A program made the position numbers and the translations under genes. The notes beneath the pieces were generated by a model, which had not been told where the DNA came from, did not search any database, and saw nothing but the letters and a program-made list of their open reading frames with translations. Of a stretch of DNA of 64,000 nt, positions 39,216-58,172 are shown piece after piece (position 1 is the stretch's first letter; every line of letters starts with the position of its first letter). The DNA comes from Pontimicrobium aquaticum (lineage in GTDB: Bacteria; Bacteroidota; Bacteroidia; Flavobacteriales; Flavobacteriaceae). Where the stretch lies: assembly GCF_005047595.1 (NCBI RefSeq), contig NZ_SUPL01000005.1, forward strand, positions 62,001-126,000, in the 5' to 3' direction.

Positions 39216-39239
39216 TTAATAAAACCATACACATAAATA

Positions 39240-39271: not shown

Positions 39272-39298
39272 AAGTTTTAATTTCACTTTTAATAATAT

Positions 39299-41341: not shown

Positions 41342-41401
41342 GTTTAAAATAGAATTGAAAATAAAATTACTTTAAGTTTACTGTAAACAGTGATTGTAAT
41401 T

Positions 41402-41734: not shown

Positions 41735-41817
41735 TTATTAATTAATTTTTGGGGTAAAATTTATTGAAGTCGAAGCTAGCGTAATTTAATTCAAGTATAA
41801 ATCCCTTTTTTTCCTTT

Positions 41818-42660
41818 TTAACACTCTTTTTTTCCTTTTTTCCTAATTCTATAACAATATGGCGAAATTCCTTCTTGGTTTTTAAAAAACCTGCTAAACG
41901 ATTTGGTACTTTCGTAGCCTATTGAGTAGGCAATTTCTTGAATACTTTTGTCAGAAAAATAAAGCAGTCGCTTTGCTTCATTCATTTTTCTTTCGTTAAT
42001 GTATTTTAATGGTGATTTTACTCCTTCTTTAGAAAAAAGGTTTGACAAGGTTTTGGGGGATTTGTTTAATAGAGTTGCGTATTCTGTAACGGTATGTTTT
42101 GTTCTAAAAAATTGGTCAACTAAATGAATATACTTTTTTATTAATGACAATTCTCCTGAGTCTATTAACAAAGCTTTATTTAGCTTAAATATTCTTAAAC
42201 AAAGAATAAGAAAATTATTTAAAAGTCCTTGAAGCATGCCCAATTTAAGATAATTGTTGGTGTGTATTTCTATTTGAAATAAACGCCATAGCAACTCAAA
42301 TTCATTGATTAAATTATCGGTAATTTTAATTGCCTTTAACCCTCCTTTACCAGTAGAAAATATATTATTCTTAAAGTTTGCCATAGCGTCATTCTTTAAA
42401 CATCCACCAAATAACCCATTAAAAACTATTACACGAGCATTACAAGATTCCTCAATATTTATCTTAGAAATTTCTGTTAAAAACAACAGTTCGTTTCTCA
42501 TAAATATTTTTAAGGAATCATCTATTGAGATAACGTTAAGATCAGACCTAAACCAAATAATAGCAAAATAGTTATTATCAAATATAGTAAGGCGTTTTAA
42601 GTTTAAATTAGTTAGTTTACTAACCATAAAAAACTCTCTAGAATTACCAAAATACTCCAT
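41818..42660 (-). CDS. AraC family transcriptional regulator
   Basis: 280 residues. The C-terminal ~100 residues are the double helix-turn-helix: VTEYATLLNKSPKTLSNLF and SIQEIAYSIGYESTKSFSRFF, ending with EGISPYCYRIR. The N-terminal ~170 residues have a beta-rich ligand domain without clear family. It precedes the thioredoxin gene on the same strand and may control it; this is inference. Confidence 0.85.
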   Translation of the reverse strand: MEYFGNSREFFMVSKLTNLNLKRLTIFDNNYFAIIWFRSDLNVISIDDSLKIFMRNELLFLTEISKINIEESCNARVIVFNGLFGGCLKNDAMANFKNNIFSTGKGGLKAIKITDNLINEFELLWRLFQIEIHTNNYLKLGMLQGLLNNFLILCLRIFKLNKALLIDSGELSLIKKYIHLVDQFFRTKHTVTEYATLLNKSPKTLSNLFSKEGVKSPLKYINERKMNEAKRLLYFSDKSIQEIAYSIGYESTKSFSRFFKNQEGISPYCYRIRKKGKKEC

Positions 42661-42776
42661 TTTATTTGCTAATTATATTACAAAAGTAGTTTCTTCTATT
42701 ACAAGAATTATTAAGCTATATTAATAAATCAATATAAGTTACATACTATCCAAAAACAAAGATGATAGAGGTCAAA

Positions 42777-43121
42777 CTAATCTTTATAAAAAAGATGTAT
42801 CCATATAGATCTTGAAAGTCTAAAATTAAAAGTACTTAACAATACTGCTATAACAGTAATAATAAAGAAAACTCTTAAGGGAGATAAATCGAAAAAATAC
42901 CAAAACAAAACCAAGCTTACTACCATTTGTGCAACCGCTAATGCATAACTAACAAACATAGCTCCAAAAAAGAAGCCTGTTTCTTTTTCAAATTTATAAT
43001 TGCAATTCCCACATCTTTCATTCATTTTAGGCATCCTAAACAATAGGATGTTGCCCTTATAATTAAAAATATTATTACTTTTACATTTAGGACATTTACA
43101 ATTTAAAGCATTAAAAAACAT
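42777..43121 (-). CDS. DUF983 family zinc-ribbon membrane protein
   Basis: 114 residues. A zinc ribbon is formed by CPKC near residue 10-13 and CGNC near 37-40, followed by the conserved KFEKETGFFFGAMFVSYA and two hydrophobic helices. The family is widespread in Bacteroidota; function unknown, sometimes linked with cytochrome oxidase genes. Divergent from an AraC-family gene across a ~100-bp gap. Confidence 0.85.
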   Translation of the reverse strand: MFFNALNCKCPKCKSNNIFNYKGNILLFRMPKMNERCGNCNYKFEKETGFFFGAMFVSYALAVAQMVVSLVLFWYFFDLSPLRVFFIITVIAVLLSTFNFRLSRSIWIHLFYKD

Positions 43122-43222
43122 TTATTATTACATTTAATTAATTATGCTTCAAAATTAGTACTATATAGCTCTATTAGCCATACAACATTATCGCTATTTC
43201 TTGTACTTTTAGGACATTTTTT

Positions 43223-44098
43223 ATGAAAATACCTGTTTTACATATTAACCAATTTCAAAAATTAAAACCATTAGATAATTTTTATGTAAATTCTTTTTCA
43301 AACCATGTAGAATTAAACTCTAAGCTGATTAATAAACCACATAGTCATAATTTTTATTTATGTATTATGTTTACTGAAGGCAGTGGCGTACATGAAATTG
43401 ATTTTAATACTTATAGAATTAATCCTGGCAAAGTATTCTTTTTAAAACCTACACAAACACATTTTTGGAAATTTGACACTAAACCTGAAGGGTTTATCTT
43501 TTTTCATTCTCAAGAGTTTTATGAATTAACTTTTTTAGATCATGCACTCAACTCATTTCCTTTTTATTACTCTTATCAAAACCCACCTTTATTAGAGCTG
43601 TCTCAAAGCGAATTAAACAAACTAAACTTAAAATTTAAAGAACTTTACATTGAATATATGCAAAACAAACCTTTAAAAAACATAAAGATAATTACCTTAA
43701 TAAGCAGTATTTATATAGAACTAACAAGAGTGTATTCTACCGATATAAGTACAGAAAAATTTACTTCTCCTCACTACTCCAAAATACTTGAAAAAGTAGA
43801 AAACTTAATAAATAAGCATTTTTATACTGAAAAGTCGCCAAATTTTTATGCTAATCAATTAAACATTACAACCAAACACCTTAATAGAGTGGTAAAACAA
43901 ACCATTAATAAGACAACAAGTCAATTAATTTCTGAAAGAATTATATTAGAATCTAAAAGGCTAATAGTTCATTCTAGAGATAATTTGGCTAGTATTGCTA
44001 ATACGCTTGAGTTTTCAGATTATGCATATTTTTCAAAATTTTTTAAATCAAAAACAGGGTTCACTCCTTTAGATTTTAAGAAAAAATATTTTCGCTAA
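43223..44098 (+). CDS. AraC family transcriptional regulator with cupin sensor
   Basis: 291 residues. The N-terminus is a cupin-like ligand domain (KPHSHNFYLCIMF, then IDFNTYRINPGKVFFLKP). The C-terminal HTH pair includes YANQLNITTKHLNRVVKQ and SIANTLEFSDYAYFSKFF. Different in the sensor from the AraC protein at 41.8-42.7 kb. Its target is unknown; it lies divergent to the DUF983 gene, an obvious candidate for control. Confidence 0.87.
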   Translation: MKIPVLHINQFQKLKPLDNFYVNSFSNHVELNSKLINKPHSHNFYLCIMFTEGSGVHEIDFNTYRINPGKVFFLKPTQTHFWKFDTKPEGFIFFHSQEFYELTFLDHALNSFPFYYSYQNPPLLELSQSELNKLNLKFKELYIEYMQNKPLKNIKIITLISSIYIELTRVYSTDISTEKFTSPHYSKILEKVENLINKHFYTEKSPNFYANQLNITTKHLNRVVKQTINKTTSQLISERIILESKRLIVHSRDNLASIANTLEFSDYAYFSKFFKSKTGFTPLDFKKKYFR

Positions 44099-44446
44099 TT
44101 TGTTCTCTATAAATAATCACATTTTTTCACTAATTAAAGAACTGTTAGTTTCTCTATAAACTAAATTTAGAGCACGAAAATTTGAACAGACATTTTCTAC
44201 GTTTAGATTTTGGTATTAATAGCCAATACACTTTAATTAAAAGAAAAAATCTCATAACTATTTACAAAACACATCTCACATCTAGACTTGCAAAAAAAGT
44301 TCAATGCAAAATATAATATTAAAAAGGTATAGTAGTTTATTATCATCATAAAGATTTTGAGCCAGATAAAAAGATAGTAATTCAATAAAAAAAGTCCAAC
44401 ACAACTGTTGAACTTTTTAAGTTGGATTAACACTAGAAAACTACTA
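44099..44446. other. Intergenic region between convergent genes
   Basis: 348 bases that hold a shared terminator (44387-44418). Nothing else is seen; the minus-strand ORF in this stretch has no family features. Confidence 0.5.
44387..44418. terminator. Terminator of the DUF2202 and AraC genes
   Basis: An A run, AAAGTCCAACA, a short loop, then TGTTGAACTTTTT. The stem has one mismatch. The same AAAGTCCAA stem recurs at 45175 and 56646. Confidence 0.75.
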
Positions 44447-45055
44447 TCATCCTCCACATCTTTCTTTTTCAGATTCAATTATCTCGTTATACTCTTCAAC
44501 AGATATAAACTGCGGAATATAACTAATCCCATTAAAATCAAGTTCAAAAACAAAACTTCTTAAATGATTTCTTGAACCGCACTTTAAACTATTATAAACA
44601 TTTAAGATGTCTATATTCTGTGTGTTAGATTCAACCTCGACAATATCTTTAATATCTAAATCTTCAACAGTGGCACCTACTTTTAGTGCCTCAATTAATG
44701 AAATATCTATTTGTGCTGTTAATTGATTGTAGAGTTGTTGTAAATCTTGATTTAAAAATATTCCCAATTCTTCTATTACTGGATCTTTTAAGTTGTATTT
44801 GTTCAATAAATACAAAATACTGTTCATATGCTGTTGTTCACTTTGCGAAATGTTATAAAATATTTGCTGTTGGTATTTCTCAAAAGCGTATAAATAGACA
44901 TCTCTAGCTAATTTTTCTTCCTCTCTCAAAAAAACAAGGTCTTGCTTTTCAAGATTGGTTAATTCTAATATTGCTGCGGTATTATCATCATTCTTAGAGC
45001 AACTGGTTATAAATACACTTATTATTGATAAGAAGGCTATTATAATTGTTTTCAT
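44447..45055 (-). CDS. DUF2202 ferritin-like lipoprotein
   Basis: 202 residues. Signal with lipobox FITSC (Cys ~19). The helical body has FLREEEKLARDVYLYAF and SEQQHMNSILYLL, carrying Glu and His residues spaced as in ferritin-like di-iron proteins of DUF2202. Function unknown, possibly metal or redox protection in the periplasm. Single gene; convergent with the AraC gene and divided from it by a terminator. Confidence 0.82.
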   Translation of the reverse strand: MKTIIIAFLSIISVFITSCSKNDDNTAAILELTNLEKQDLVFLREEEKLARDVYLYAFEKYQQQIFYNISQSEQQHMNSILYLLNKYNLKDPVIEELGIFLNQDLQQLYNQLTAQIDISLIEALKVGATVEDLDIKDIVEVESNTQNIDILNVYNSLKCGSRNHLRSFVFELDFNGISYIPQFISVEEYNEIIESEKERCGG

Positions 45056-45165
45056 GATTAAAAATTTAAATTAAACACTATACATATTAGACTTCAAATT
45101 TCTATTTAGGTTTAGTATAACGTTTGTAACAAAAGTTACTTAGTAGGTAAGCTTTTCAGAAAAAT

Positions 45166-45188
45166 TTAATGCATAAAAAAAAGTCCAA
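45166..45188. repeat. Possible left attachment-site repeat
   Basis: TTAATGCAT, eight As and GTCCAA. The same string with seven As lies at 56637-56658 beside tRNA-Asn and an integrase gene. Part of the match belongs to a terminator stem, so convergence is possible. Confidence 0.4.
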
Positions 45189-45206
45189 CATTTCTGTTGG
45201 ACTTTT
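45175..45206. terminator. Intrinsic terminator
   Basis: An A run, AAAGTCCAACA, a TTTC loop and TGTTGGACTTTT: a perfect 12-bp stem. No gene obviously ends here on the minus strand, which fits a former tRNA or its remnant just to the right. Confidence 0.75.
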
Positions 45207-45326
45207 CTTTGTTTGCTCCCCTTCATATGTCATTATCGAACCAATCTTTAACTATGATTAAAGAGTTTACCAAATTTTAAACTCTTTTCATAAAGCTATT
45301 GAACTTTCATTACTTCAAAGAATAAA

Positions 45327-45352
45327 AACAAGCCTCTATTAAAAGGCTTGTT
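45327..45352 (-). terminator. Terminator of the TlpA-like gene
   Basis: AACAAGCCT and AGGCTTGTT make a 9-bp stem; the A run to its left gives T residues on the minus strand. It lies about 80 bp past the stop of the TlpA-like gene. Confidence 0.7.
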
Positions 45353-45428
45353 CATTTTGTAATCTACTGGAAATCAATATTAAAAATAGATTAATTTTGA
45401 AAAGCACCAGTTTAGGACATTACCATAA

Positions 45429-46979
45429 CTAATTTTCTATATTAATTTTATCAATTATCCTTTTAAATACAATACTATCCGAAGGATGTGGTGCATAATT
45501 CAAAACAATTTCGTTTTGTTTATTTAGAATTATATACCTTGGAATCGAATGAACTTTTAGATATCTTCCTAGTGGTGAATTTGTACCATTAATAACCAAA
45601 TATTGGTTACGAACATTAAGATAGCTTTCAAGTTCTTTTGATTTTTTTAACCATTTTTTTTTATCTTCATCTATAGATAAGTAAATCCATTCTACGTTAT
45701 TTTCAACTGATAATTTATCTTTAAAACTATTAGCTTTTGTTATTTCGGTAATACATGGAGGGCACCAACTTGTCCAAAAATTTATAACTCTTATCCTTTT
45801 ATTGGAACGGTTAAAAATTTCGCCTAATGTTAAAGTATCACCATGTTTACTGAGTAATTTGGTGTTTAATGCTGGTTGAGGAAACTCTAATTCAAAGGAA
45901 TTTAAATCTTCTATAATATCTTCTATTTCCTTTGTATACTCTGAATCTGGATATTGTTTACCATATTCGTGAATTTCATTTTTAAAAAAAGAAACACTTT
46001 GTTTACTATTCCCAAGGCCTCTCCAATGATAAACAGTAATGAGAGAAGCCATTGCGTACTCCTTGATTTTTTCATCAAAATTATTTTCTATAACAGCTTT
46101 TTCTGCCAAAAATTTTTCTTTGGAATAACTTGGATGATCTGAAGTCGCAAAGTAATTTCTTATAAGTCCTGATAAAGCAGGTTTGAAAGAACCTATACTT
46201 AAATGGCTCTCATCCTTAAAATCATCTATTGTAATGTCCCCTAAATAGTCTTTAAGATTAAACAACTGTTCTTTACTGCTATGCTCTTTTTGAATAATTG
46301 TAAATAATTCCTCTGGGCCAGCCAAGTAAAAAGAGTCTCCATTTTTTTGTGTTCTGGGGCTTATTAATTCATAAAGGTGCGAATATTTCAAACCAGACGC
46401 TACAAAATCAATAAATGACTTTGATGTGATATTATGCCTCCTTACGTATTTATTAAAAAAATCTACTTTTTTTCTGTAAATAGAGTCTACCCTGGATTTA
46501 TATTCTATGATACTGCCTTTATAAGGATTGTGTATATATCTTGGAGTAGAATCTCGTAAACTTGAATAAAAGTTATGTTCAGCAGCTTTTTCTCCCTTAA
46601 TGCTAAATCGCTTATTTTTAATTTCAAAAATTATCGTATCATTTGGTTTCGCCATAAATGTAGCACGATAATTGATATCTTTGGAATATGAAGTCAAGTG
46701 TAAGAGTTGCGGTTCTAAAATAGAATCGATCTCCATGACTATAGAGTCACCAATCACCTTTTGGTCTGTTATGCAATTTCCATGATTAAGTGAAGCCGAA
46801 GACGTGTTGAATACATTAAAATGGTTAAAAGGTATTAAATCATCTGTTTTACCAATAATTAAGACTTTTCCTTTTTTTACATTATTTATGTCTTTAATCT
46901 TTTGATGATTGCTATTGTTTTTACTATTACAGCTTAAGACTACAATAACTATTACGATATTAAATATTATCTTTCTCAT
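45429..46979 (-). CDS. TlpA-like thioredoxin-domain lipoprotein
   Basis: 516 residues. The leader ends in a lipobox (VVLSC, Cys ~17), so the protein is anchored and faces the periplasm. Residues 30-370 are a helical domain found in front of thioredoxin in many Bacteroidota proteins. The C-terminal ~130 residues are a TlpA-type thioredoxin with WCPPC at about 402-406 and the cis-Pro motif HSIPRYII. It probably keeps periplasmic thiols reduced or serves as a disulfide exchanger. First gene inside the proposed island. Confidence 0.85.
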   Translation of the reverse strand: MRKIIFNIVIVIVVLSCNSKNNSNHQKIKDINNVKKGKVLIIGKTDDLIPFNHFNVFNTSSASLNHGNCITDQKVIGDSIVMEIDSILEPQLLHLTSYSKDINYRATFMAKPNDTIIFEIKNKRFSIKGEKAAEHNFYSSLRDSTPRYIHNPYKGSIIEYKSRVDSIYRKKVDFFNKYVRRHNITSKSFIDFVASGLKYSHLYELISPRTQKNGDSFYLAGPEELFTIIQKEHSSKEQLFNLKDYLGDITIDDFKDESHLSIGSFKPALSGLIRNYFATSDHPSYSKEKFLAEKAVIENNFDEKIKEYAMASLITVYHWRGLGNSKQSVSFFKNEIHEYGKQYPDSEYTKEIEDIIEDLNSFELEFPQPALNTKLLSKHGDTLTLGEIFNRSNKRIRVINFWTSWCPPCITEITKANSFKDKLSVENNVEWIYLSIDEDKKKWLKKSKELESYLNVRNQYLVINGTNSPLGRYLKVHSIPRYIILNKQNEIVLNYAPHPSDSIVFKRIIDKINIEN

Positions 46980-47232
46980 TGAAATATTAAATATTGTTAA
47001 TACAGGTTAGTAGTAATTACATTCATTAATATCAAATATTATTTTGGCACTTGGTAAATTAGTTTTGGTTTTGTTTGTTTAAAATTACTAAAACAACAAC
47101 TTTTTTCTTAAAAAAATTCAAAGATGACCTCGTTTATATATCTTGGATAAACATTAACTTAATGCTAACAAAGGACTAAAAGTTCTTTTTCAAGATTGAA
47201 ACTGATTACTTATATAAGATTAAGAATAGCTA

Positions 47233-48276
47233 CTACATCTCTTTTATTATTTCAATAGCTTTTTCTAATAATTCATCTCTTCCATTTTTTATACCTTCTA
47301 CTGTTGGTTTTATTTCTATATCTGGAACTATTCCTATTCTTTGAGTTTCTGTACCATCAGGATAATAAATTCCAACTCCAGAAATAGCAGTTAATAGTCC
47401 ACCAGGTAAATATAAAGAAGAAACACTCCCATCTGTTCCTGCTGTAGTACTTCCAATTATTTTTGTTTTATTTCCTGCTCTAAATGCCATAGCTGTATAC
47501 TCTGCTTGACTTTGAGTAAATTCATTAACCAAAACTATCAATTTCCCTTTATAAGTTTCTGTTGGCTTTGGAATAAGTGCCTCTTTTTTAAAAACAAATT
47601 CACCAGGGTTGTTTATGTTGAAATTTGTAAACTTAACAAAAGGAGTTGGAGAAGACACAAAATAAGACCCTAAAGTAAACGGCACAAATGATGAAGGATA
47701 ATTTCTTATATCTATAATAATTCCTTTAGTGTCTTTAAAAATTTTCTTTATGTAAGGGATATCTTCTTTTTTAATAAATTCTAAATTTATATAGCCTATG
47801 CTATCTTCAAGAAATTTATAGCTTTTTTCTCCTGTCCATTTATACCATCTAATATTCAAGTCACTTTCTTTATAAAGAAGTAAATTGCTTTGTTTTTTTT
47901 CATTGTTCGAAATATAATTAACTCTAATGCTTTTTTTATTTGAACGCAGTAAATCTCTAGATATATCTCTCATTTTAACAATGTTATTTGAGGAAGGATA
48001 AAAGGAACTAATACTATCAATTAAAAAATCTAAAGGTTTTCCATTTATACTTGTAATTACATCACCAACTTCAAATTTAGAAACGCTTTTAAGCTCAGGG
48101 TTATAATAATCAGTAACAACTAGTTTCTCTTCAATAAATTGAACTTTGAAAGGTGGATAATAACTCCCTCTAGTGTTTTGTATATTATTGAATCCTACTC
48201 TAGTTGTGGCATGTGTGTCATTAATAGAATCAATAGTAAGCTTCTCATTTCTTTTTAGATTTAAGCAATAAATATG
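47233..48276 (-). pseudogene. S41 family peptidase, truncated at the 5' end
   Basis: From the only in-frame ATG (47973) 246 residues can be read, containing the S41 core with the nucleophile motif in EFTQSQAEYTAMAF and the TAGTDGSVSS segment. The same frame stays open upstream to a TAG at 48277-48279 and encodes INDTHATTRVGFNN, PPFKVQFIEEKLVVTDYY and GDVITSINGKPLDF. These are the end of the N-terminal domain and the PDZ of this family, but no start codon is available there. So the gene lost its signal peptide and first part. The fragment could still be made from 47973 without the PDZ, but a secreted protease without a leader is unlikely to work. Confidence 0.65.
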
Positions 48277-48421
48277 CTATCCAAAAAACAATAATGATAG
48301 CGATTACATGTCCTATGACATCTGCTGCCTCATATGTTGGCAGGCTCTTCATTAATACGATTAGAGAAATAAACCCTCCAAGTAATAGTAGTATTCCTAA
48401 TACTGTCTTTAATAATTTCAT
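48245..48421 (-). CDS. Possible 58-residue two-helix membrane protein
   Basis: An ATG-started minus-strand ORF encodes a protein with hydrophobic helices at about 7-23 and 35-52 and a basic tail KSKKK. It overlaps by about 30 bp the open frame of the truncated peptidase gene. Helices and a start 114 bp divergent from the XRE regulator gene speak for a real gene. No family recognised. Confidence 0.4.
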   Translation of the reverse strand: MKLLKTVLGILLLLGGFISLIVLMKSLPTYEAADVIGHVIAIIIVFWIAYLLLKSKKK

Positions 48422-48534
48422 TTTGTTATTTTAAATTAATTATGATTTTTACTCAACCCCTAAATATAAACAAACATATTTTACCGTACATATATGTTCT
48501 GCTGTTTTTTAAACAAATAGAGCAAATTTGTTCT

Positions 48535-48783
48535 ATGGCTAAAAAAGCAACAAATACAGTTGATGCTGAGATTATTATTAAATTGGGTAGACGCATAAAG
48601 TATTTACGAACTAAGATGAATATGACCCAAATGGATGTAGCCGCAATAGTAAATATTGATCCCTCAGCAGTAAGAAGATATGAAAAAGGTAGAGTAGAAA
48701 TGGGCTTTACTACATTGATGAAGTTCGCTGAAGCTTTTGAGGTTACAGTAAATGACTTGCTTTACCCAGAAGAAATAAAATAA
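48535..48783 (+). CDS. XRE family transcriptional regulator
   Basis: 82 residues from the ATG at 48535; the longer frame from 48442 adds a hydrophobic leader unsuited to a DNA-binding protein. A Cro/CI-type HTH covers about residues 16-70 with MNMTQMDVAAIVNIDPSAVRRYEKG. Such proteins often regulate a neighbouring gene in islands; candidates are the 58-residue membrane protein and the truncated peptidase on the opposite strand. Confidence 0.8.
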   Translation: MAKKATNTVDAEIIIKLGRRIKYLRTKMNMTQMDVAAIVNIDPSAVRRYEKGRVEMGFTTLMKFAEAFEVTVNDLLYPEEIK

Positions 48784-48939
48784 CATTTTAAAGTAGTGAT
48801 TATTTGGACAGTCATTAAAATTATATCTTCTCTTCTAAAGGTTTATTCCTTTATTCTACTATTTAAAAAAGCTTAAAAAGTAATGTATTGTATTACAAGC
48901 ATTGTTTAAGGTAACACCCCTTCTTTAAATTCAAATAAA

Positions 48940-48966
48940 AAGTTGGCAATTTGACTTTGCCAACTT
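48940..48966 (-). terminator. Terminator of the large type IX cargo gene
   Basis: AAGTTGGC and GCCAACTT form an 8-bp stem around an 11-nt loop; A richness to the left becomes T richness on the minus strand. It lies about 80 bp past the gene's stop. Confidence 0.6.
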
Positions 48967-49044
48967 GCCAAGTTATTATTCTAACCCTTCTCTAAAGGAC
49001 CTAATCTTCAATATATTTACCATAAAAACATCAACATAAAAGCC

Positions 49045-52000
49045 TTATTTGATTATTACTTTTTTAGAAAACGAATTAAGTTTGGTTTTTAGTTTAATAA
49101 TGTGTACTCCTGAGGTCTTATTTCCTTCAATATTATATTCAATAAAATTATCATTGGTTTGTACCTTAAACTTGAACAAAGACTGACCTAAAATATTAAA
49201 CATTTCTACAGAATTTATAAATAGAGAATTGGGATTTAAAATGACAATTTTATTATTAGAAAAATAAACTTCTATATTATCATTATTAGAAACTATAGAA
49301 CCTAGTGTCTCTCCTTTAAAGAAAGTAATTTCAAACCTATCAAGATGCTCTCCAGCAATTAAGTATACTTCATAATTAGAATCTCTAAGATCATGGTATA
49401 TTTCCAATTCTTTGTCATGTAGATATATATTCCTTTCCTCAGTCACATTCTCCAAAGTATCTATTTTAATATTAATTAAACCTTCTTGACTAATTTTAAC
49501 ACCTATTGGTAGTTTTTGCTCTTGATTAAAATTATCTACCGCTTGAATGATGTACTTATCATCATTAATGACCCAAAACATATCCTCTGTATTGTCTTCT
49601 ATAAGAAATGCATCATATCCTGTATCATGACTTTGAGTGGCATTTTGATCAACTCCAACCAATAACTGTCTATAATATCCTTTAGGAGAATCAAACATTA
49701 GTCTTATTTTCTCTCTAGTATCCATATTTACTACCCTGGTATTTTTGCTTTCTTTTTTATTATTACCACTTCTCATAAATAAAGAGGGATCCGAGACTTC
49801 TGTTTTAAAAATACGTTGACTATTCTTAAAAGTCACTGTGCCACCTGTACCAGCTGTAACAAAAAATCCTTGACCTACTGGAATATATTGTTGAGGTAAT
49901 TTTGTGCCTATAGCACCAGAGTTATTAATACGAACATCATTGGAAATTGCTACAGTTCCTCCCATCAAGTTATAGGCAGCATATCCACCTTCATAATCTC
50001 CAAGATTATGTGATTTATTCGCAAAGTGATCCCAAAAATATAAAGTACCATTGATAATATCAGTATCAGCTCGTCCTCCATTATTATTAATATTATCCAA
50101 TATAAATTCATTAGCATCAATAGCGGAAGCATATGGATTACCTATAAGATAATCGTTACCAGGCGAAAGTGTCAAAGTAATATCACCATTATTGGGTTTT
50201 CCGTTAAACACATAGTTCTGCTCTTCTATAAAAGAAGATGAGCTATTTTCTACCCCTTTCATTGTGTAACCCTCACCAGGCTGCAAAATGCCATTACTAC
50301 GTATATGCTGCCATGAAGGATAGTTGTTACTTATCAAATTAGCATATTTCCAAATCCAATAATCCGCAATACCAATAGGTGATCCCGAAGTCCCATTGTA
50401 TCCAGATGTAATCCAATTGATACTAATTGGTGAAGCCGCATTACTTCCATCTTTAAGTACATCTTGAACAGTATAGTTATTATTATTAGTTGTTATGTTA
50501 CTTACACCAACAGGAGCTGACCAATAATTGTAGGTATAAAGATCTGCTGTCCCTTGTTGGTCTCTCTCTAAAATTCCCGAGCTTGTAGGGTCTAAATCAC
50601 TGTTTTCTCCCTGAACCAATTGAGATTCACCCTCCAAATCAATTTTTCCATCTAATTTTAAATACCAACTGTTGTATAGTTCTACATCTCCATTTATTAC
50701 CAATTCTACGTTTGGGTATATTAATAAGCCCAATGATCCATGCCTACTAGAAGTTGTTATATTATTTTTTACAGCAATAATACTCCAATCTTTATTATTG
50801 GGCTCATCTTCAATATCCCAAACGTTTCCATGCAGCCAACTAGCCTGAGAAGTCCATAAGCCATCAGTAGCTGTTTGATATGGCATTGGTGCTGTTTGTG
50901 GTTGAATACTGGTAATGTTATGCATGGTCGCCATATAATCATTAGACGAAAAATCACTTGTTCTTCCATACGAAATAATATCAGTCATTGGATAATATGC
51001 AGACAAGCTTGACCACAAAACTGTTGCACCTGTATTAAAATCTACTATTTCTTTAGGAACTATCTTCCCTATAAGATTACCGCTATTATCTTGTATTTCC
51101 TGATATACAATTTGTTGTAATTGATCTTCTGTAAGACTAACATTAAACACACGTACTTCATCTATAGCACCTTTGAAATAATTAATGCTAGAACTAGAGG
51201 CTTTCCCTATGGTAAAAAGATCAGTACTGGTGGTTAATCCAGAAGCTAAGGTGGCGTGCCCTGAAGCTCCTTCTTCTTCTCCATTAATGTACACTTTGTA
51301 TTGTTCACTTATTGCTAAAGAAGCATCATAGACAACAGCAATATGTGTCCATTGATCTAAGGTTAATGCCGTTGAAACAGGTAGTTCTAAAGTACCTGAA
51401 TTTAATTGAACACGAACATTGTTTGTGCCACCGATAACTCTAATTTCCATGTCTCCTTGGCTTAAAACCATTCCTGTGTTAGTGAAAGTAGAATCTAACT
51501 TAACCCAAGCCATATAGGTTCCTTGTGTTGTTCCGCTTAAATTTAAAGAACTATCTATATAATCATCCACCCCATCAAAATCTATAAAGGCTATTGGTGT
51601 TGGTGAATTAAATTCTATATTACCGTTACAGGCTGATGTAAGATCGTTTATGTTTGATGGAACTGTTACGTCTAACAAAATATCTATATCTTCCGTACAG
51701 CCACCACAAACGGCATCAAAGCCTCCACCGTCATCTATATCGAAAAATTTATGGCCTGTAATGGTCGCATTTGATTGTAACTCTGCATTATTACGGACAA
51801 TTAAGATTGAAGTATCGTCATTACCAATCATGTCATTATTATTCAAAACAAAGTTATCTGCCAATATCATATCATTATTATAAAATGTATTAGCTCCAAA
51901 ATTTATTCCTCCATCTATAATTAAAAGGCCTTCATTATAAAAATCCCCATTCAAAATTAGATCATTATGAAGATAAGTAACGCAAAGGTTTTGTAATCCA

Positions 52001-52617
52001 CTGGCTCCTCCAGTACTTACATCTCCAGTAACGACTTCTAAAAGTCCACAATTTTTGAGTATGTTGTTTGTAGACACACTTCCTTGAACAATAATTTCGG
52101 CATCTGAATAATTAGTAATTGAGACTTGCCCCCCTACAGTTAAATCTCCTCCTACATTTAACGATCCTGCATTATATATGTCCGTAGATCCTCCTGGAGC
52201 TAAGTTTAAAGGAAAGTTAGCTGTTGAAGTAGTGTCTATATATACAGTTGTTCCAGACATACTTGGCGTATTGGTTAAAGTAACATCTCCTTCGGCAATT
52301 AATGTTCCATTAAGAGTACTTATACTTCCTGTATATGATACTCCTGGAGCAACATAAAGGGTTCCTCTAATGGTGCCAAAATTATCTGCAGAATTATTTG
52401 CCAAAATACAAATTGACTGGCCTAGAGATGCACCAGTCGGTGCTACTATAGGGTTACCTAATGCATCCTCCCATCCGGTAGCCGTATAGGTATATGTGCA
52501 TGTAACTGGTTGACCTGGAGAACTAAATGTGTTTCCATCACACGTTTGCGCTTTAGCAAAGAAAAACGTGCTAATAAATGACAATGCAAATAAACTTGAC
52601 TTTATAAATAGCTTCAT
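49045..52617 (-). CDS. Large secreted LamG-domain protein with type IX sorting tail
   Basis: 1190 residues from the ATG at 52617 (an upstream ATG at 52638 adds seven residues before the true signal). Signal peptide to about FAKAQ, then repetitive beta-rich stretches with many Asn, Gly and Thr (~30-330). A LamG/concanavalin-like domain spans ~345-505 (DFDGVDDYIDSS, GTYMAWVKLDS, WTHIAVVYD). The C-terminus has the por-type sorting domain (MFNILGQSLFKFK, then SGVHIIKLKTKLNSFSKKVIIK, of which the last residues are the KKVIIK tail). It should be exported through the type IX system and may bind glycans or surfaces. Confidence 0.85.
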   Translation of the reverse strand: MKLFIKSSLFALSFISTFFFAKAQTCDGNTFSSPGQPVTCTYTYTATGWEDALGNPIVAPTGASLGQSICILANNSADNFGTIRGTLYVAPGVSYTGSISTLNGTLIAEGDVTLTNTPSMSGTTVYIDTTSTANFPLNLAPGGSTDIYNAGSLNVGGDLTVGGQVSITNYSDAEIIVQGSVSTNNILKNCGLLEVVTGDVSTGGASGLQNLCVTYLHNDLILNGDFYNEGLLIIDGGINFGANTFYNNDMILADNFVLNNNDMIGNDDTSILIVRNNAELQSNATITGHKFFDIDDGGGFDAVCGGCTEDIDILLDVTVPSNINDLTSACNGNIEFNSPTPIAFIDFDGVDDYIDSSLNLSGTTQGTYMAWVKLDSTFTNTGMVLSQGDMEIRVIGGTNNVRVQLNSGTLELPVSTALTLDQWTHIAVVYDASLAISEQYKVYINGEEEGASGHATLASGLTTSTDLFTIGKASSSSINYFKGAIDEVRVFNVSLTEDQLQQIVYQEIQDNSGNLIGKIVPKEIVDFNTGATVLWSSLSAYYPMTDIISYGRTSDFSSNDYMATMHNITSIQPQTAPMPYQTATDGLWTSQASWLHGNVWDIEDEPNNKDWSIIAVKNNITTSSRHGSLGLLIYPNVELVINGDVELYNSWYLKLDGKIDLEGESQLVQGENSDLDPTSSGILERDQQGTADLYTYNYWSAPVGVSNITTNNNNYTVQDVLKDGSNAASPISINWITSGYNGTSGSPIGIADYWIWKYANLISNNYPSWQHIRSNGILQPGEGYTMKGVENSSSSFIEEQNYVFNGKPNNGDITLTLSPGNDYLIGNPYASAIDANEFILDNINNNGGRADTDIINGTLYFWDHFANKSHNLGDYEGGYAAYNLMGGTVAISNDVRINNSGAIGTKLPQQYIPVGQGFFVTAGTGGTVTFKNSQRIFKTEVSDPSLFMRSGNNKKESKNTRVVNMDTREKIRLMFDSPKGYYRQLLVGVDQNATQSHDTGYDAFLIEDNTEDMFWVINDDKYIIQAVDNFNQEQKLPIGVKISQEGLINIKIDTLENVTEERNIYLHDKELEIYHDLRDSNYEVYLIAGEHLDRFEITFFKGETLGSIVSNNDNIEVYFSNNKIVILNPNSLFINSVEMFNILGQSLFKFKVQTNDNFIEYNIEGNKTSGVHIIKLKTKLNSFSKKVIIK

Positions 52618-53136
52618 TTCAAAAAAGTTAACAAGCAATTGACATCTTACTTGATGGCTAATATATTTATAAAAAACGATATAACACTTATTTAACCGAT
52701 GTAATGTATGTTATTTTAACATTAGCGTGAGAAAATTCAAATTTCTTTTAAAATGCAATTTGTTTTCTTGTAAATCTTTTGATGTGAATTCTAGTAGCCA
52801 CTAAGTTTACCAATTTTTATTATATGTTTTATTTGTGGTGGGTTTATTGTTAAAAAAACAACAGCTAACTTAATTGTTAACTGTTGCTTTTAAAATAACT
52901 AATAATCTATAATCACATGCTAATTATAACGTTGCTAATGATATTATAGTGCCTCCCACAACTTTAGATGAAACATTTAGCTTCTAATATGTTAATATCA
53001 ATTGTCAAATTAAACCTGTTCTCTTATCATAAAGTGGTTTTTAACCATAAGTTATAAGGTTCTTCTTTGATGAATTTTAGCCAATCGTGAAAATCTGTCG
53101 TTTTTTTTGCTAACTTTATTATGAAATCCCTCTAAA
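52618..53136. other. Intergenic region with an orphan hairpin
   Basis: About 519 bases between divergent genes. CAACAGCTAAC (52859-52869) and GTTAACTGTTG (52876-52886) form a terminator-like stem with an A run on the left, as for a minus-strand transcript, but no gene is seen in front of it. The rest shows nothing recognisable. Confidence 0.45.
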
Positions 53137-53544
53137 ATGAATAAAACTAAAAACAGTTATTTTCATAACTCACATGCGTCATATAATTTCCCTTGGGGAG
53201 ATTTATACTTTTATGAAAATTTCATAATTTCAGAGATAAGTGAAGGATCCGTTATAGGAGAGTCACAATTTATGGAAGCCATGAACCTAACGAATGATTA
53301 CTTTGGAGTTGAAAAACCTTATGGGTTAATCAGTAATAAGGTTAACTCTTACTCAATTAATCTGCCTGAATTAATTCCCATAGCAAGAAAATTTGGTAAT
53401 CTAAGACTAAATGCTGTTGTCCTTTATTCTGGGATTGGATATGAGAATTTTGAAATTGAAAAACGTTTATTAAAATTTAAAGGAGAGGTCTTCTTTAATC
53501 TAGACCAAGCAATTGATTGGATTACAAAAGAGCTCCAAGTTTAA
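53137..53544 (+). CDS. SpoIIAA/STAS-like protein of unknown function
   Basis: 135 residues, cytoplasmic. The pattern of a strand pair, ISEISEGSVIGES, then KPYGLISNKVNSYSINLPEL and AIDWITKELQV matches a flavobacterial STAS-like family similar to anti-sigma antagonist folds, without a known role. Ends in a bidirectional terminator shared with the convergent yceI-like gene. Confidence 0.6.
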   Translation: MNKTKNSYFHNSHASYNFPWGDLYFYENFIISEISEGSVIGESQFMEAMNLTNDYFGVEKPYGLISNKVNSYSINLPELIPIARKFGNLRLNAVVLYSGIGYENFEIEKRLLKFKGEVFFNLDQAIDWITKELQV

Positions 53545-53576
53545 CCCTACTAGGGATTCCAAAGGTGACATATAAC

Positions 53577-53606
53577 AAAAAAGGCTGCAAATACAGCCCA
53601 TTTTTT
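53577..53606. terminator. Bidirectional terminator
   Basis: An A run, GGCTG/CAGCC stem with a CAAATA loop, then a T run, between the STAS-like gene and the convergent yceI-like gene. Confidence 0.7.
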
Positions 53607-53638
53607 ATATCCTAATATGAATAAAATAATTAACCTAT

Positions 53639-54199
53639 TTATTGTTGGTTCATTTCCATGTTAATCACTATCTCTACTTCATCACCTAAAGTAGCTGTTT
53701 TACCTCCCACTTTAAACAATAATCTGTCTATGGTGCCTGTTATCTTCAACCCTGCTTTAAGCTTTTGATTTCTCCTATTGGTGATAATCCCATTAACCTT
53801 ACCATCTAAAGTAACACTCCTGGTAACATCCTTAATAGTTAAATCCCCTGTTAGCTTAAAAGTCTTTTCTCCAGTCATTTCTACATTAGTTGTTTTAAAC
53901 ACCATAGTAGGGAACTTCTCAGCTCCAAAATAATCATCACTTCTTAAATGCTTGTCCCTGCCATCATTATCCGTATCAATACTGGCTATTTTAATTTCTA
54001 CATTAAAATTTGGATTGGAAAATGTATCATCTGCTGTAGCTTCAATATTGAAATCACCAAAGTTTCCAGTAACTTCAGATATCATTAAATGAGTAATATT
54101 AAAGCTCACCTTTGAATGTGCCTTATCTGCTTTCCATGTAGATTGAGAAAAAACAATGGAGGAAACTGTAAAAAATAACACAGTAAATAACTTTTTCAT
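53639..54199 (-). CDS. YceI family periplasmic protein
   Basis: 186 residues from the ATG at 54199, which gives a clean signal peptide (MKKLFTVLFF ... FSQS). The lipocalin-like YceI barrel shows WKADKAHSKVSFNITHL, the middle DKHLRSDDYFGAEKFPTM and the strand SVTLDGKVNG. Family members bind isoprenoid-type or polar lipid ligands in the periplasm; the partner here is unknown. Single gene. Confidence 0.9.
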   Translation of the reverse strand: MKKLFTVLFFTVSSIVFSQSTWKADKAHSKVSFNITHLMISEVTGNFGDFNIEATADDTFSNPNFNVEIKIASIDTDNDGRDKHLRSDDYFGAEKFPTMVFKTTNVEMTGEKTFKLTGDLTIKDVTRSVTLDGKVNGIITNRRNQKLKAGLKITGTIDRLLFKVGGKTATLGDEVEIVINMEMNQQ

Positions 54200-54352
54200 A
54201 ATGTTTGATTTTATTATTAATAGATACAAATTAACCATACTATAAGTTTATATTCTGTTAAGAATATATTAAAGATTACATTTAATGTGCTCAATTAAAA
54301 AAATATCAGCCCCTAGAAAGGACTTTGCTCATTTATTCTTTTTCCTTAGATT

Positions 54353-54487
54353 TTACTGTATATCCCTAAATTTATCCATCTCCTTAACAACCCTACTCTC
54401 AACTACTTTACCATAATGATCCTGTGTAGTCTGTAATTTAGAATGACCTAATAGCTTACTCACAATCTCCATTGGTAAATAAGTATA
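54353..54487 (-). pseudogene. C-terminal remnant of a tyrosine integrase
   Basis: An open minus-strand frame ends MEIVSKLLGHSKLQTTQD, then HYGKVVESRVV, the last 40 or so residues of a tyrosine recombinase with the LGHS motif and the nucleophile Tyr. It is closely similar to the same region of the intact integrase at 55302-56495 (MEIVSELLGHSNMKITQD, SYGKVV) but not identical. A stop lies at 54488-54490 and the front of the gene is gone. Confidence 0.75.
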
Positions 54488-54575
54488 CTAATACTGTAAG
54501 ATTATTATGTAAATTTGAAAGAATCTGTATAATTAGGCTAATAATAGTTTTATTTCATTAAACACAATAATTATT

Positions 54576-55256
54576 ATGGAAAAATCTATTACATGGACGG
54601 AAAAGCTTTATAAAGGACATTGGCTAATGGATCTAGGTTATCGTGATTATATTGCTGCTCGTTTTTTACTCAATAATCATTTAATAATTCAAGGACTAAC
54701 ACTTGCTAGTACTTCAGTTGAAAAATATCTGAAAGCAATAATTGTATTTAACCTCAAAGACAATGAAAGATATCATTACCATCTTGATAGATTTGAAGAA
54801 TTGAAAAATCTTCTATCCAAAGTAGGCAGCGATATAACTGAAGAATTTGATGCAGTTTTCTTAGAAATATTGCAAAATTCATTTAAAATCAGATATTACG
54901 ACAATATTAAAAAGCCAATCTTTATAGGCTTCTACATAAATCAGCTAATTGGTGAATTAGATTATACTATTGACTTTATGGAAAAACATATTGATAACTC
55001 AAAAAATGGAGGGGAATCCATGTCTAGATACTTTGATGCCATTAAAAATAATGATTCACATCTTTATGAAAACAACTTCATCCTGAGCAAAGAGAATAAA
55101 AAAGACTTTATGGAAAAACCTGATATTGGATTTTCAATTAATATTCGTATTGGATCAGTAATTCAAGATGAGGGTATAGTAAAAGGTGGAAGTACTAAAA
55201 ATAAGTATGAAGGTCAAATATCAAAATTCACAGAGTTTACACAGAATTTATTTTGA
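54576..55256 (+). CDS. HEPN-like protein
   Basis: 226 residues. The first ~130 are helical with the HEPN-type pattern YRDYIAARFLLNNHLI, LASTSVEKYLKAIIVFNL, similar to nucleotidyltransferase-associated HEPN proteins. No standard R-x4-6-H catalytic motif is evident; RYHYH near residue 65 is only Rx3H, so RNase activity is uncertain. The last 60 residues are unrelated to known domains. It lies on the opposite strand between a dead integrase tail and a full integrase gene, typical island cargo, without a nucleotidyltransferase partner. Confidence 0.55.
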   Translation: MEKSITWTEKLYKGHWLMDLGYRDYIAARFLLNNHLIIQGLTLASTSVEKYLKAIIVFNLKDNERYHYHLDRFEELKNLLSKVGSDITEEFDAVFLEILQNSFKIRYYDNIKKPIFIGFYINQLIGELDYTIDFMEKHIDNSKNGGESMSRYFDAIKNNDSHLYENNFILSKENKKDFMEKPDIGFSINIRIGSVIQDEGIVKGGSTKNKYEGQISKFTEFTQNLF

Positions 55257-55301
55257 ATAAATAACGGGTAAAAGCGTGTGTAATTCTCTTTTGAAGTAAA
55301 A

Positions 55302-56495
55302 CTAGCCACCTCCCTCCAATCTATTCATCGCATTACTAATCTTCTTCTGAACCACTTTACCATAACTATCCTGTGTGATTTTCATATTACTATGACCCAG
55401 TAACTCACTTACAATCTCCATTGGAACATCATTATATAATAACACCGTACTTGCAAATGTTCTCCTAGCCATGTGGGTTGTCAATCTTTTGTCTATCCCA
55501 ACAATGGATGCTATCTCTTTTAAATAAGAATTATAACGTTGGTTGCTTATCCTTGGGAATATAAAATCATCATTGCTATAGTTATTTAGTATTATGAGTG
55601 CCTTAGGTAACAATGGTATTGATAAACTTTTAGAGGTTTTCTTCCTCTTCATTTTAATCCAAAGCTTATTATCAAACCCTTTTACAATATGATTGTGTTT
55701 CAAATCCATTAACTCATTATAAGGCAATCCTGTATAACAACAAAAAATGAATAGGTCTTTTACAAATTGCAATCTAGTTTGGTTGAACCCATATTCTTCA
55801 AGCTTTTTAAGCTCTTCTGGAGATAAAAACACTATTTCCTTCCTTACCGTTTTAGATTTAAAGAGTATAAATGGGTCTTTGTCTAAATAACCTTCAGCTA
55901 CAGCAACTTTAATAGGTTTTCTAAAACGCTGTATGGACTTATTGATAGTGATTTGAGCTTGTTTCTTCTCTGTTTTAAGGTAATACTCAAAATCATTAAG
56001 AAACTGTAACTTCAAGTCTTTAAGTGGATAATCTGAGGTTTTATACTGCCATTTTATAAAGGATTGCACATGGTTTTTTACATAATAGAATTTATTCCAT
56101 GTAGATTCCACAATATCAATCCCTACAAGCGTTTTAAGCCTCTTTAAGTAACGTTCAAAATATTCAATAGTATTGTGGTCCTTGGCTATTTTCTCGCCTT
56201 TATAGGTCTTGTAAATGTCTTCAACTGTAAAGTCATTTTCCTGTACCTGTAATACTAAAAAAGCCTGACTAAGTTTTGTCTTAATCAGGCTCAATTGTGT
56301 GTTTATCAACTCTGCATCAGGTTCTGGTGGTTTGACCTCCTGTTGTTTGTTGTTCCAGTTTTTAGGGTTTATGAATAATCCTGTGGAGAATTGTTTTCTA
56401 TTCTTTGAATATGTAAGCCTACAAGTAACTCCACAGAGCCCTTTTTTATTTGTTTTTGACTTATTAATGGTATATAATATATTAAGTTTCATAAT
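55302..56495 (-). CDS. Tyrosine recombinase/integrase (Bacteroidota element type)
   Basis: 398 residues from the ATG at 56495; the longer frame (to 56576) reads through short repeats. Arm-binding domain ~1-90, SAM-like core-binding ~105-200, catalytic ~215-390. Box I is CCYTGLPYNELMDL, where Arg is replaced as in many Bacteroidota recombinases; box II has HMARRTFAS (~336-344); LGHS is at ~363 and the nucleophile Tyr at ~375 (QDSYGKV). It integrates mobile DNA. tRNA-Asn lies 190 bp away, its likely target. Confidence 0.9.
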   Translation of the reverse strand: MMKLNILYTINKSKTNKKGLCGVTCRLTYSKNRKQFSTGLFINPKNWNNKQQEVKPPEPDAELINTQLSLIKTKLSQAFLVLQVQENDFTVEDIYKTYKGEKIAKDHNTIEYFERYLKRLKTLVGIDIVESTWNKFYYVKNHVQSFIKWQYKTSDYPLKDLKLQFLNDFEYYLKTEKKQAQITINKSIQRFRKPIKVAVAEGYLDKDPFILFKSKTVRKEIVFLSPEELKKLEEYGFNQTRLQFVKDLFIFCCYTGLPYNELMDLKHNHIVKGFDNKLWIKMKRKKTSKSLSIPLLPKALIILNNYSNDDFIFPRISNQRYNSYLKEIASIVGIDKRLTTHMARRTFASTVLLYNDVPMEIVSELLGHSNMKITQDSYGKVVQKKISNAMNRLEGGG

Positions 56496-56518
56496 GTAAT
56501 TTGTGTTAAATAACGATG

Positions 56519-56577
56519 GGAGTCTTTTTAAAAAAAAGGGAGACCCAATAGGAGTCTTTTTTAAGAAATAACCCAAT
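56519..56577. repeat. Short direct repeats between integrase and tRNA-Asn
   Basis: GGAGTCTTTTT occurs at about 56519 and 56551 and ACCCAATAG at 56543 and 56569, with a further GGGAGAC in between. Repeats in this place are candidates for arm-type integrase sites. Confidence 0.45.
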
Positions 56578-56636
56578 AGATTTGATTCTTTGAAGTAAAA
56601 TGCAACTAATGCAATGAATGTAATTAAAATGCTAGG

Positions 56637-56658
56637 TTAATGCATAAAAAAAGTCCAA
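56637..56658. repeat. Possible right attachment-site repeat
   Basis: TTAATGCAT, seven As and GTCCAA, just past the tRNA-Asn 3' end. Matches 45166-45188 except for one A. Confidence 0.4.
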
Positions 56659-56680
56659 ACTACAATTGTAATTTGGACTT
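56646..56680 (-). terminator. Terminator of tRNA-Asn
   Basis: AAGTCCAAA and TTTGGACTT pair, with an inner TACAA/TTGTA stem; the seven As on the left give a T run on the minus strand after the tRNA. Confidence 0.8.
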
Positions 56681-56685
56681 CACTG

Positions 56686-56759
56686 CTCCTCCTCTTGGGC
56701 TCGAACCAAGGACCCTCTGATTAACAGTCAGATGCTCTAACCAACTGAGCTAAGGAGGA
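56686..56759 (-). tRNA. tRNA-Asn (anticodon GTT)
   Basis: 74 nt. Acceptor stem TCCTCCT/AGGAGGA with a G discriminator; D arm TAGCTCAGTTGGTTAGA; anticodon stem CTGAC/TCAG with loop TGTTAAT giving GTT; T arm with GGTTCGA. CCA is not encoded. A terminator follows and the integrase gene lies beyond it, so it is the likely insertion target. Confidence 0.95.
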
Positions 56760-56831: not shown

Positions 56832-58172
56832 TTAATTAAAAATGGCCTTAAAAATATCGTTTCCATTAGCAAAAAGTACTAAAGCAATTAATATAAAGAA
56901 CCCTACCATTTGTGCATACTCCATAAACTTATCCCCAGGTTTTCTTCCAGATACCATTTCGTATAATAAAAACATCACATGTCCTCCATCTAGTGCTGGA
57001 ATTGGCAATAAGTTTAAAACGCCTAACATAATAGACAAAAAGGCTGTAATACTCCAAAAAGATTGCCAGCTCCATGTGTCTGGGAAAATATCAAAAATAG
57101 CTTTAAATCCACCAACACCTTTATAAGCGCCAGTACTAGGTGTAAAAATTAGTTTTAGTTGCATCCAATAGGAACTAATTTGATCCTTAAATCTTGTTAG
57201 GCCTACGCCTATACTTTCTCCAAAGGTATATTGTTTTTCAACGATATTATAGTATCCTAATTTTTCAATATCACTATAGGTTCCTCCAGAAATGATACCA
57301 AGTTTACCATTGCTATCAACTTTTAAACTTCTGGTTATTTTCTTACCATCTCTCAAAAGTTCTGCATTAACTGTTTCACCTTTAAAATCTTCTACTATAT
57401 TTCCAAGCTGATCAAAATACTTCAGCTCTTTTCCGTTAATTGATACAAATGCATCTCCTTTCTTTAAATCTACATCTTTATTTATTAGCGTATCTACTAC
57501 TTTTGCAATAATAAAAGGGGTTCTTAACTCAAAAAAACCTCTTTCTTTACTTGAGCTTAATCTCCCTAAAAAGTCTTCTGGTAGTGTAATTTTTTGCTCA
57601 ACACCATCACGCTCGATAGTAATGACTTGTGCTTCTATAAAATATTTTTTAAGGTCAGAGTAATTAACTATTTTATTATTATTAATAGCTAAAACATTAT
57701 CACCTGTTTGTAGTCCAAATTCTTTTAACAAAGAATTTTCAACTAAATACCCATCTTTAATGCTATTTGCAGCGATGTCTGACTCACCATAACCATAAGC
57801 CATAAAAATGTAAATAATCGCTGCCAAAATAAAGTTAACCGTTACACCACCAAGCATAATAATTAAACGCTGCCAGCTAGGTTTAGAACGAAACTCCCAA
57901 GGTTTTGGTTCTTCAGCCATTTGCTCCTTGTCCATACTCTCATCGATCATCCCTGAGATTTTTACATATCCTCCTAATGGCAACCACCCAATTCCGTAAA
58001 CGGTTTCTCCTATTTTCTTTTTAAATAGCGAGTATTTTATATCAAAAAACAAGTAGAATTTTTCTACTCTAGTTTTAAATAATTTTGCTGGTATAAAATG
58101 TCCTAATTCGTGTAAAACAATTAGTAATGAAAGGCTCAATAAAAATTGAGATATCTTAATAACAAACTCCAT
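56832..58172 (-). CDS. rseP: RIP metalloprotease RseP (site-2 protease)
   Basis: 446-residue membrane-embedded zinc protease. The zinc motif HELGH is at residues 21-25 in the first helix; the second site with the Asp ligand is LPIPALDGGHVMF toward the C-terminus. Two periplasmic PDZ domains lie between. It performs the intramembrane cut that frees an extracytoplasmic sigma factor and removes signal-peptide remnants. Length and layout are standard for Bacteroidota. Divergent from the SCO1-like gene. Confidence 0.94.
   Translation of the reverse strand: MEFVIKISQFLLSLSLLIVLHELGHFIPAKLFKTRVEKFYLFFDIKYSLFKKKIGETVYGIGWLPLGGYVKISGMIDESMDKEQMAEEPKPWEFRSKPSWQRLIIMLGGVTVNFILAAIIYIFMAYGYGESDIAANSIKDGYLVENSLLKEFGLQTGDNVLAINNNKIVNYSDLKKYFIEAQVITIERDGVEQKITLPEDFLGRLSSSKERGFFELRTPFIIAKVVDTLINKDVDLKKGDAFVSINGKELKYFDQLGNIVEDFKGETVNAELLRDGKKITRSLKVDSNGKLGIISGGTYSDIEKLGYYNIVEKQYTFGESIGVGLTRFKDQISSYWMQLKLIFTPSTGAYKGVGGFKAIFDIFPDTWSWQSFWSITAFLSIMLGVLNLLPIPALDGGHVMFLLYEMVSGRKPGDKFMEYAQMVGFFILIALVLFANGNDIFKAIFN

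Follow-up and report, generated by a model that had tools for sequence, protein, structure and literature searches.

The stretch of Pontimicrobium aquaticum DNA analysed here (the window, 64,000 nucleotides, G000:C18:62001-126000, from a genome of 3.31 Mb in 22 contigs) carries a block of accessory genes beside a tRNA-Asn gene, and this block is likely a layered, and probably defective, island that was brought to a tRNA-Asn accretion site by a CTnDOT-type tyrosine integrase. Read directly from the DNA are a displaced copy of the tRNA flank, a set of genes absent at the same site in relatives, and the habit of the integrase family of lying at tRNA ends; the place of the crossover, the arm sites and the loss of mobility are inferred. 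The first-pass annotation had proposed a genomic island of about 11.5 kb at this tRNA. The island and its left border stand, whereas the notion of a single element gives way to a layered block, and accessory DNA reaches further left, to about 39.1 kb. The features on which the argument turns are listed below by their positions in the window.

45162-45244: left border, with displaced tRNA-Asn 3' flank, hairpin (45179-45206), acceptor and T-loop pieces
55302-56495, minus strand: tyrosine integrase, 397 aa from the ATG, with Arm-DNA-bind_5, Phage_int_SAM_5 and Phage_integrase domains
56519-56529 and 56551-56561, plus strand: second repeated motif, GGAGTCTTTTT, a possible second type of arm site
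56600-56622, plus strand: probable integrase arm sites RTGCA, RTGCA and RTGTA in 9-bp steps
56637-56684: present tRNA 3' flank, thought to be supplied by the element, with a terminator-like hairpin (56650-56681, minus strand)
56685-56759, minus strand: tRNA-Asn (GTT), the insertion target, 3' end towards the island
56832-58172: RseP-like M50 peptidase, adjoining tRNA-Asn

Displaced tRNA-Asn end at 45.2 kb

Five genomes of the same genus (G001-G005) were compared with the window, and the RseP locus was recovered in four of them (G001-G004), G005 giving no RseP match. The tRNA-Asn flank of G003 aligns with 45162-45219 over 58 columns at 91% identity and a score of 88 (shuffled maximum, 34), and in a search of the whole P. 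aquaticum genome this place is its top match (E 3.2e-16); next come the flank of the tRNA-Asn gene as it now stands (E 2.9e-10) and, at 44387-44417, a terminator (E 2.2e-5). The match continues to the left of the hairpin (AAATTTAATGCA) and to the right into the tRNA end (TTTGCTCC). A chance repeat was considered and rejected on the basis of the shuffled queries and the whole-genome search. The string TTAATGCAT-(A)n-GTCCAA, which the first-pass annotation had noticed beside the tRNA and again at 45.17 kb, does align with the tRNA-Asn flank at 45166-45188, and it is the G003 flank, together with the tRNA words that follow, that lifts this repeat above chance. The words of the tRNA 3' end reported from the same place could also be traced: GCTCCCCTTC at 45215 recurs letter for letter as the 3' end of tRNA-Asn in G001 and G002, GCTCCCC being unique to this position on the plus strand of the 64 kb, and TCGAACCAA occurs twice on that strand, at 45236 and in the tRNA at 56701. 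The two words are spaced by 11 nt in the left copy and by 6 nt in the G001 tRNA.

In its acceptor form the left copy agrees with G001 and G002 and differs from the present tRNA-Asn, as would fit a crossover within that end of the gene. A flank of the DUF2202 gene to the left is common to G002 and the window up to 45206 and then ends (77%, 162 columns, E 8e-25), and this places the border immediately ahead of the acceptor piece of the tRNA. Judged from sequence, the repeat at 45.2 kb is the 3' end of tRNA-Asn and the adjoining terminator, displaced from the gene and imperfect in the tRNA part. The genes between the two ends are absent from the site in relatives. The first-pass annotation had named two grounds on which the island would fall, namely relatives carrying the same genes at this place without the integrase, or an unrelated left border; none of the open reading frames (ORFs) of 45.4-56.6 kb is present at the tRNA-Asn site of G001, G002, G003 or G004 (4/4; tblastn, E 1e-6 and 1e-5), and the border is related to tRNA-Asn.

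Two other borders were examined and rejected. A second left border between 45.3 and 56.6 kb, for example by the dead integrase described below, found no tRNA-like piece to mark it. At 39.05 kb, a T-arm word like that of G004 (39052-39066) scores 20 against a shuffled mean of 19.3, and the sequence around it is alignable with the region 5' of the corresponding core gene in G001.

The integrase family and its sibling elements

The integrase ORF (55302-56576) starts with TTG, and the ATG at 56495 leaves a gap of 189 bp to the tRNA, in agreement with the 190 bp first noted. Its domains are an arm-binding (PF17293), a core-binding (PF13102) and a catalytic (PF00589) one. A search of 299 genomes of the family gave a match at E 1e-100 in 37, and 32 loci were examined, namely the 30 best (the window's own included) and two other copies from the P. 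aquaticum genome. Beside the integrase start of 26 of the 32 lies the 3' end of a codirectional tRNA gene, with the integrase reading away from it; the targets are Asn (11), Met (7), Asp (6), Arg (1) and Pro (1), and the remaining 6 have none in the stretch examined. In a tree of these 32 family integrases the tRNA labels require 13 changes, against a shuffled mean of 18.2, and none of 200 shufflings was as low. The window integrase falls into a group of 13 (nine at Asn, one at Met, three with no tRNA beside them) with a support of 84/82, which is not strong.

The CTnDOT-type label is based on the domains and the arginine pattern, the tree being one of the window family. In a published account of the subgroup (PMC8138268), its members, such as those of CTnDOT and NBU1, have the same arm-binding, core-binding and catalytic domains as the window integrase, and in the CTnDOT-like ones the first catalytic arginine is absent and a downstream arginine present. 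The same holds for the window family: the first arginine is absent in 32/32 (TGL followed by P, A or G), and R284, K286, H341, R344, H368 and Y378 are invariant in 32/32. R284 may be the substitute arginine of CTnDOT, a residue that members of the IntCTnDOT subgroup place at one of two positions (PMC8138268). NBU1, in contrast, retains the first arginine by the same account (PMC8138268), and its target is given as tRNA-Leu in another (PMC5704250), whereas the window family is found at the 3' ends of tRNA-Asn, -Met and -Asp. At one locus (L064, G223:C10), a stretch of 20 kb contains three matches to the window integrase, of which two are nearly complete and the third is an N-terminal piece; they form a tandem of related elements.

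Between integrase and tRNA, three copies of RTGCA at exact 9-bp steps occur in 8 of the 26 loci and in none of 1000 Markov shuffles. The window version, two RTGCA and a third with one change, is the sole match of this pattern in its own genome, and such repeats are probably arm sites. For the second motif, GGAGTCTTTTT, no copy was found near the left end at 45.2 kb, and no left arm site was recognised in the tRNA-Asn block. By eye, the motif near the integrase start (in the gaps of L020-L049) differs between elements (TACACC, GCAACC, GGAGTC) and is constant within each, and the change of letters from one element to another looks like a change in the specificity of the arm-binding domain. A far-end arm motif is present in 5 of 7 siblings; having been defined after the sibling sequences were viewed, it is to be taken as a lead.

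A second copy that includes tRNA sequence was found in 7 of 11 sibling elements, at distances of 12-25 kb; two of the stretches searched were limited, to 3.9 kb in G129 and to 17.6 kb at the tRNA-Met of G002. The repeats (matching positions and distance) are as follows.

G066: 68/68 bp, 24.5 kb
G018: 69/69 bp, 24.7 kb
G213: 63/64 bp, 19.4 kb
G189: 61/63 bp, 18.5 kb
G157: 27/27 bp, 19.5 kb
P. aquaticum, tRNA-Met: 32/32 bp, 12.9 kb
P. aquaticum, tRNA-Asp: 88% of 73 bp, 12.0 kb

In G066, G018 and G213 the repeat takes in the tRNA terminator. The hairpins of the window (45179-45206 on the plus strand and 56650-56681 on the minus strand in a terminator scan) had led the first-pass annotation to doubt the left border, and this doubt is resolved by these siblings: the window repeat overlies a terminator because the sibling repeats include the tRNA end together with the adjoining terminator.

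The two siblings in the same genome (G000:C18:282748-284223 and G000:C1:310670-312505; L018 and L019), at tRNA-Met and tRNA-Asp, have integrases 72% and 55% identical to that of the window and the same layout at the tRNA 3' end. They share genes for RadC, a 113-aa protein, a 188-aa protein and a lipoprotein (80-92%), which the tRNA-Asn block lacks; when nine sibling proteins were sought in 20001-57500 of the window, only the integrase was found. Each of these two siblings has a further relic 2.4-2.6 kb past its far end.

Taken together, we suggest that a CTnDOT-type integrase would have recombined a circular element into the tRNA-Asn 3' end. A crossover within the tRNA end would have displaced the old acceptor end and its terminator to the far side, at 45.16-45.24 kb, and the element would have given the gene a new end and terminator (56.64-56.70 kb), so that the tRNA was kept whole. 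The dead integrase end indicates that loading took place in at least two steps. The block, now of about 45.22-56.69 kb, is probably defective, given its imperfect left core, the lack of a recognisable left arm site and its truncated peptidase; it is the imperfect tRNA part of the left copy that makes present mobility doubtful.

Competing explanations and serial insertion

Several observations weigh against this interpretation. Queried with the tRNA flank of the window itself, the repeat reaches 38, against 37 at most for 100 shuffled queries, and a second place (44367-44408) scores 36; this is near the level of chance, so that the repeat by itself would not convince, and blastn with the same flank does not list the left copy as a tRNA-bearing relic. 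Of the tRNA, the copy has two short pieces of 10 and 9 nt, interrupted by 11 unrelated nt. The terminator motif is widespread, 44387-44417 matching at E 2e-5, and a place in G003 that is not a tRNA matches 45160-45206 (81% of 47). The DUF2202 flank of G002 carries the hairpin away from any tRNA, and the hairpin, or part of the flank similarity, may thus stem from the DUF2202 side. Among the siblings, no second copy was found within 38 kb in G064 and G259. The missing backbone had been entertained as proof of decay, a case weakened by G066, which despite its perfect 68-bp repeat also lacks the other eight sibling proteins; backbone loss is therefore weak evidence of decay.

If there were no island at all, the repeat would be a common terminator of the lineage and the genes would have been gained or rearranged in some other way. 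The recurrence of the stem, for example at 44387-44417 and away from tRNA genes in G002 and G003, speaks for this, but the match of the G003 flank extends past the stem in both directions, as far as the tRNA acceptor end, and no other place in the genome matches it as well. The acceptor and T-loop words occur nowhere else, or almost nowhere else, in the window, and the opposite end carries an integrase whose family targets tRNA genes; we hold this account to be highly improbable. It is also unlikely, although less so, that the block is one intact and still mobile element of 11.5 kb with functional attachment (att) sites at 45.17 and 56.7 kb. The integrase is open and keeps the catalytic residues of its family, and probable arm sites lie on its side. 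The left core, however, differs from the tRNA in the T-arm, whereas the repeats of G066, G018, G157 and the tRNA-Met element of the same genome are perfect (27-69 bp); GGAGTCTTTTT is without a copy near the left end, a dead integrase end lies inside, and the ORFs tested include no recognisable relaxase or excisionase. A tentative but more serious alternative divides the block, such that an older element owned the 45.2-kb relic and the dead integrase, and the living integrase with the HEPN-like gene is a younger small element whose left border, at about 54.5 kb, has been lost. The integrase end at 54371-54490, whose N-terminal side is missing, is in keeping with this, as are the layered relics of G002 and the tandem integrases of G223, but a search of 45.3-56.6 kb gave no tRNA-like sequence. 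This division is itself a version of serial insertion.

Serial insertion at the site is indicated, as far as sequence comparison goes, by the dead integrase of the window, an integrase-end remnant resembling it in G064, the integrases of G223 and the relics of G002. G002 has two displaced tRNA-Asn ends (33858-33926 and 34937-35028) bounding genes of 308 aa and 173 aa, and an intact integrase at its tRNA-Met; to the right of GCTCCCC, where a common sequence outside the T-arm was considered, one of these (relic B) aligns locally with the window relic at a score of 21 (p 0.006 in 2000 Markov shuffles), an alignment that rests on the shared TCGAACC. In G103 (L085), the nearer of two copies matches at 59/59 bp, lies 1355 bp from the tRNA and bounds a unit of 1.3 kb with one ORF of 285 aa and no integrase, and the copy lying farther away resembles another complete tRNA-Asn gene. 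The RseP-side stretch was obtained from 40 of 119 genomes of the family, 5 of the 40 being short (<5 kb), and tRNA-Asn lay beside RseP in 40/40. No complete close integrase was found in these 40 stretches; there were fragments in L112 and L117 and a 24% match at 13.5 kb in L099. Relics with at least 12 tRNA nucleotides occur in at least 4 of the 40 (L084, L085, L118 and L121), a minimum count, given the short stretches and given that a scan run with the flank of the respective genome fails to pick up the relic of the window.

It can be speculated that the tRNA-Asn end is a loading dock for integrase-less units of about 0.9-1.3 kb, each with a single main gene, which would be moved in trans by integrases residing at other tRNAs. 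Each unit would have a tRNA-Asn 3' end plus terminator as its boundary, and the window block would be such a dock in the loaded state, its acceptor end and terminator being rewritten with each arrival. We consider this proposition as a whole improbable. The G002 relics with their single genes and an integrase at tRNA-Met, and the unit of G103 bounded by 59 bp, are what favours it. Deletion of larger elements gives the same picture, however, the G103 genome has only a 30%-identical integrase match, and no relic was seen in 36 of the 40 surveyed loci, by a scan that misses the window's own.

Genes of the block, neighbouring DNA and known elements

Apart from the living integrase, the block contains the following genes, and they include the accessory set listed at first (truncated peptidase, XRE regulator, type IX cargo, dead integrase, HEPN), the HEPN assignment lying below the profile cut-off; the TlpA-like and YceI genes and the 135-aa ORF are additions to that set.

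45429-46979, minus strand: TlpA/thioredoxin-like protein, cargo
47233-48270, minus strand: S41 peptidase, N-terminally truncated, first ATG at 47973
48442-48783, plus strand: XRE-type helix-turn-helix regulator
49045-52638, minus strand: LamG-domain protein with type IX sorting tail, cargo
53137-53544, plus strand: ORF of 135 aa
53639-54238, minus strand: YceI-family protein, cargo
54371-54490, minus strand: dead second integrase, C-terminal remnant of 40 codons, 53% identical
54576-55256, plus strand: HEPN-like protein, 226 aa, of patchy distribution

The sorting tail of the LamG protein scores 24.8 bits (cut-off 23), and homologues of this protein are found in 6/6 genomes of the genus (E 1e-20), the best outside the island being 53% identical; such cargo is thus at home in the genus. 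No Pfam, NCBIfam or PADLOC match was found for the 135-aa ORF. The HEPN profile reaches 20.6 bits, under the Pfam cut-off of 22, and as a defence gene the protein has weak PADLOC matches (best E 0.003). Searched at E 1e-10, 198 other genomes of the family gave no match to this solitary protein, and relatives in genome contigs were found at 11 loci (L071-L081) in Flavobacteriia, with a best-segment identity of 68-84%. These loci share no neighbours except integrase-like genes, with a match to the window integrase in 3/11 and a tRNA in 4/11. Among the ORFs tested in 45.4-56.6 kb against Pfam and NCBIfam, shorter ORFs being left unscanned, no relaxase, conjugation gene, excisionase or recombination directionality factor was recognised. 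The GC content of the block is 0.306, or 0.291 when the LamG gene is left out; the flanks have 0.332 and 0.331, and the DNA to the left of the block has 0.267. Base composition does not settle where the border lies.

That DNA, outside the island, is also accessory.

39090-45160: further accessory DNA left of the island, last gene DUF2202 (44447-45055)

In G004, G001 and G003, the core gene homologous to 38608-39021 lies about 390 bp, 2.8 kb and 11.1 kb, respectively, from tRNA-Asn. G002 has the homologue of another core gene (36978-38582) at a distance of about 4.4 kb from its tRNA, adjoined by a DUF2202 gene that is 83% identical to that of the window at the same locus. These positions place the beginning of the accessory region at about 39.1 kb and not at 45.17 kb. 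The block 39299-44098 encodes a hybrid histidine kinase, a thioredoxin, two AraC regulators and a small DUF983-like protein, some of the names having been assigned by eye, and a search with the histidine kinase (39299-41341) at E 1e-60 gave no match in any of the five other genomes of the genus. On the minus strand of 39096-39200, where the accessory region begins, a fragment FKTVNLSSLNEGIYFIEISNGNNVVVKNCFLIRGI resembles by eye a leftover end of a type IX sorting tail.

Integrative elements and cis-mobilizable elements (CIMEs) accreted at tRNA genes are described in one account (PMC5704250) as integrating into the tRNA 3' end without breaking it, decaying and being joined by tandem insertions, and likewise here; the course outlined there is integration, decay to a CIME and accretion of another element (PMC5704250). 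Compared with the integrative elements of that account (PMC5704250), the block has no recognised relaxase, conjugation or directionality factor gene among the ORFs tested, and its left core is imperfect. A CIME is bounded by att sites and has lost its integrase, and the block differs in its open integrase; what lies behind the dead integrase end may be a CIME. A tRNA-Asn island published from the same broad group is described with a transposase, and the likeness is one of description only. No account of this particular tRNA-Asn site was found in the literature as far as it was accessible, which was in part. The tRNA-Asn block is ordinary in kind among bacterial islands. Its case illustrates that a weak-looking terminator repeat can be a true island border when the tRNA flank of a relative serves as the probe, and it identifies the tRNA-Asn adjoining rseP as a place of layered insertion. 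Were the small integrase-less units indeed loaded there one by one, this would be a simple system for single-gene loading at a tRNA.

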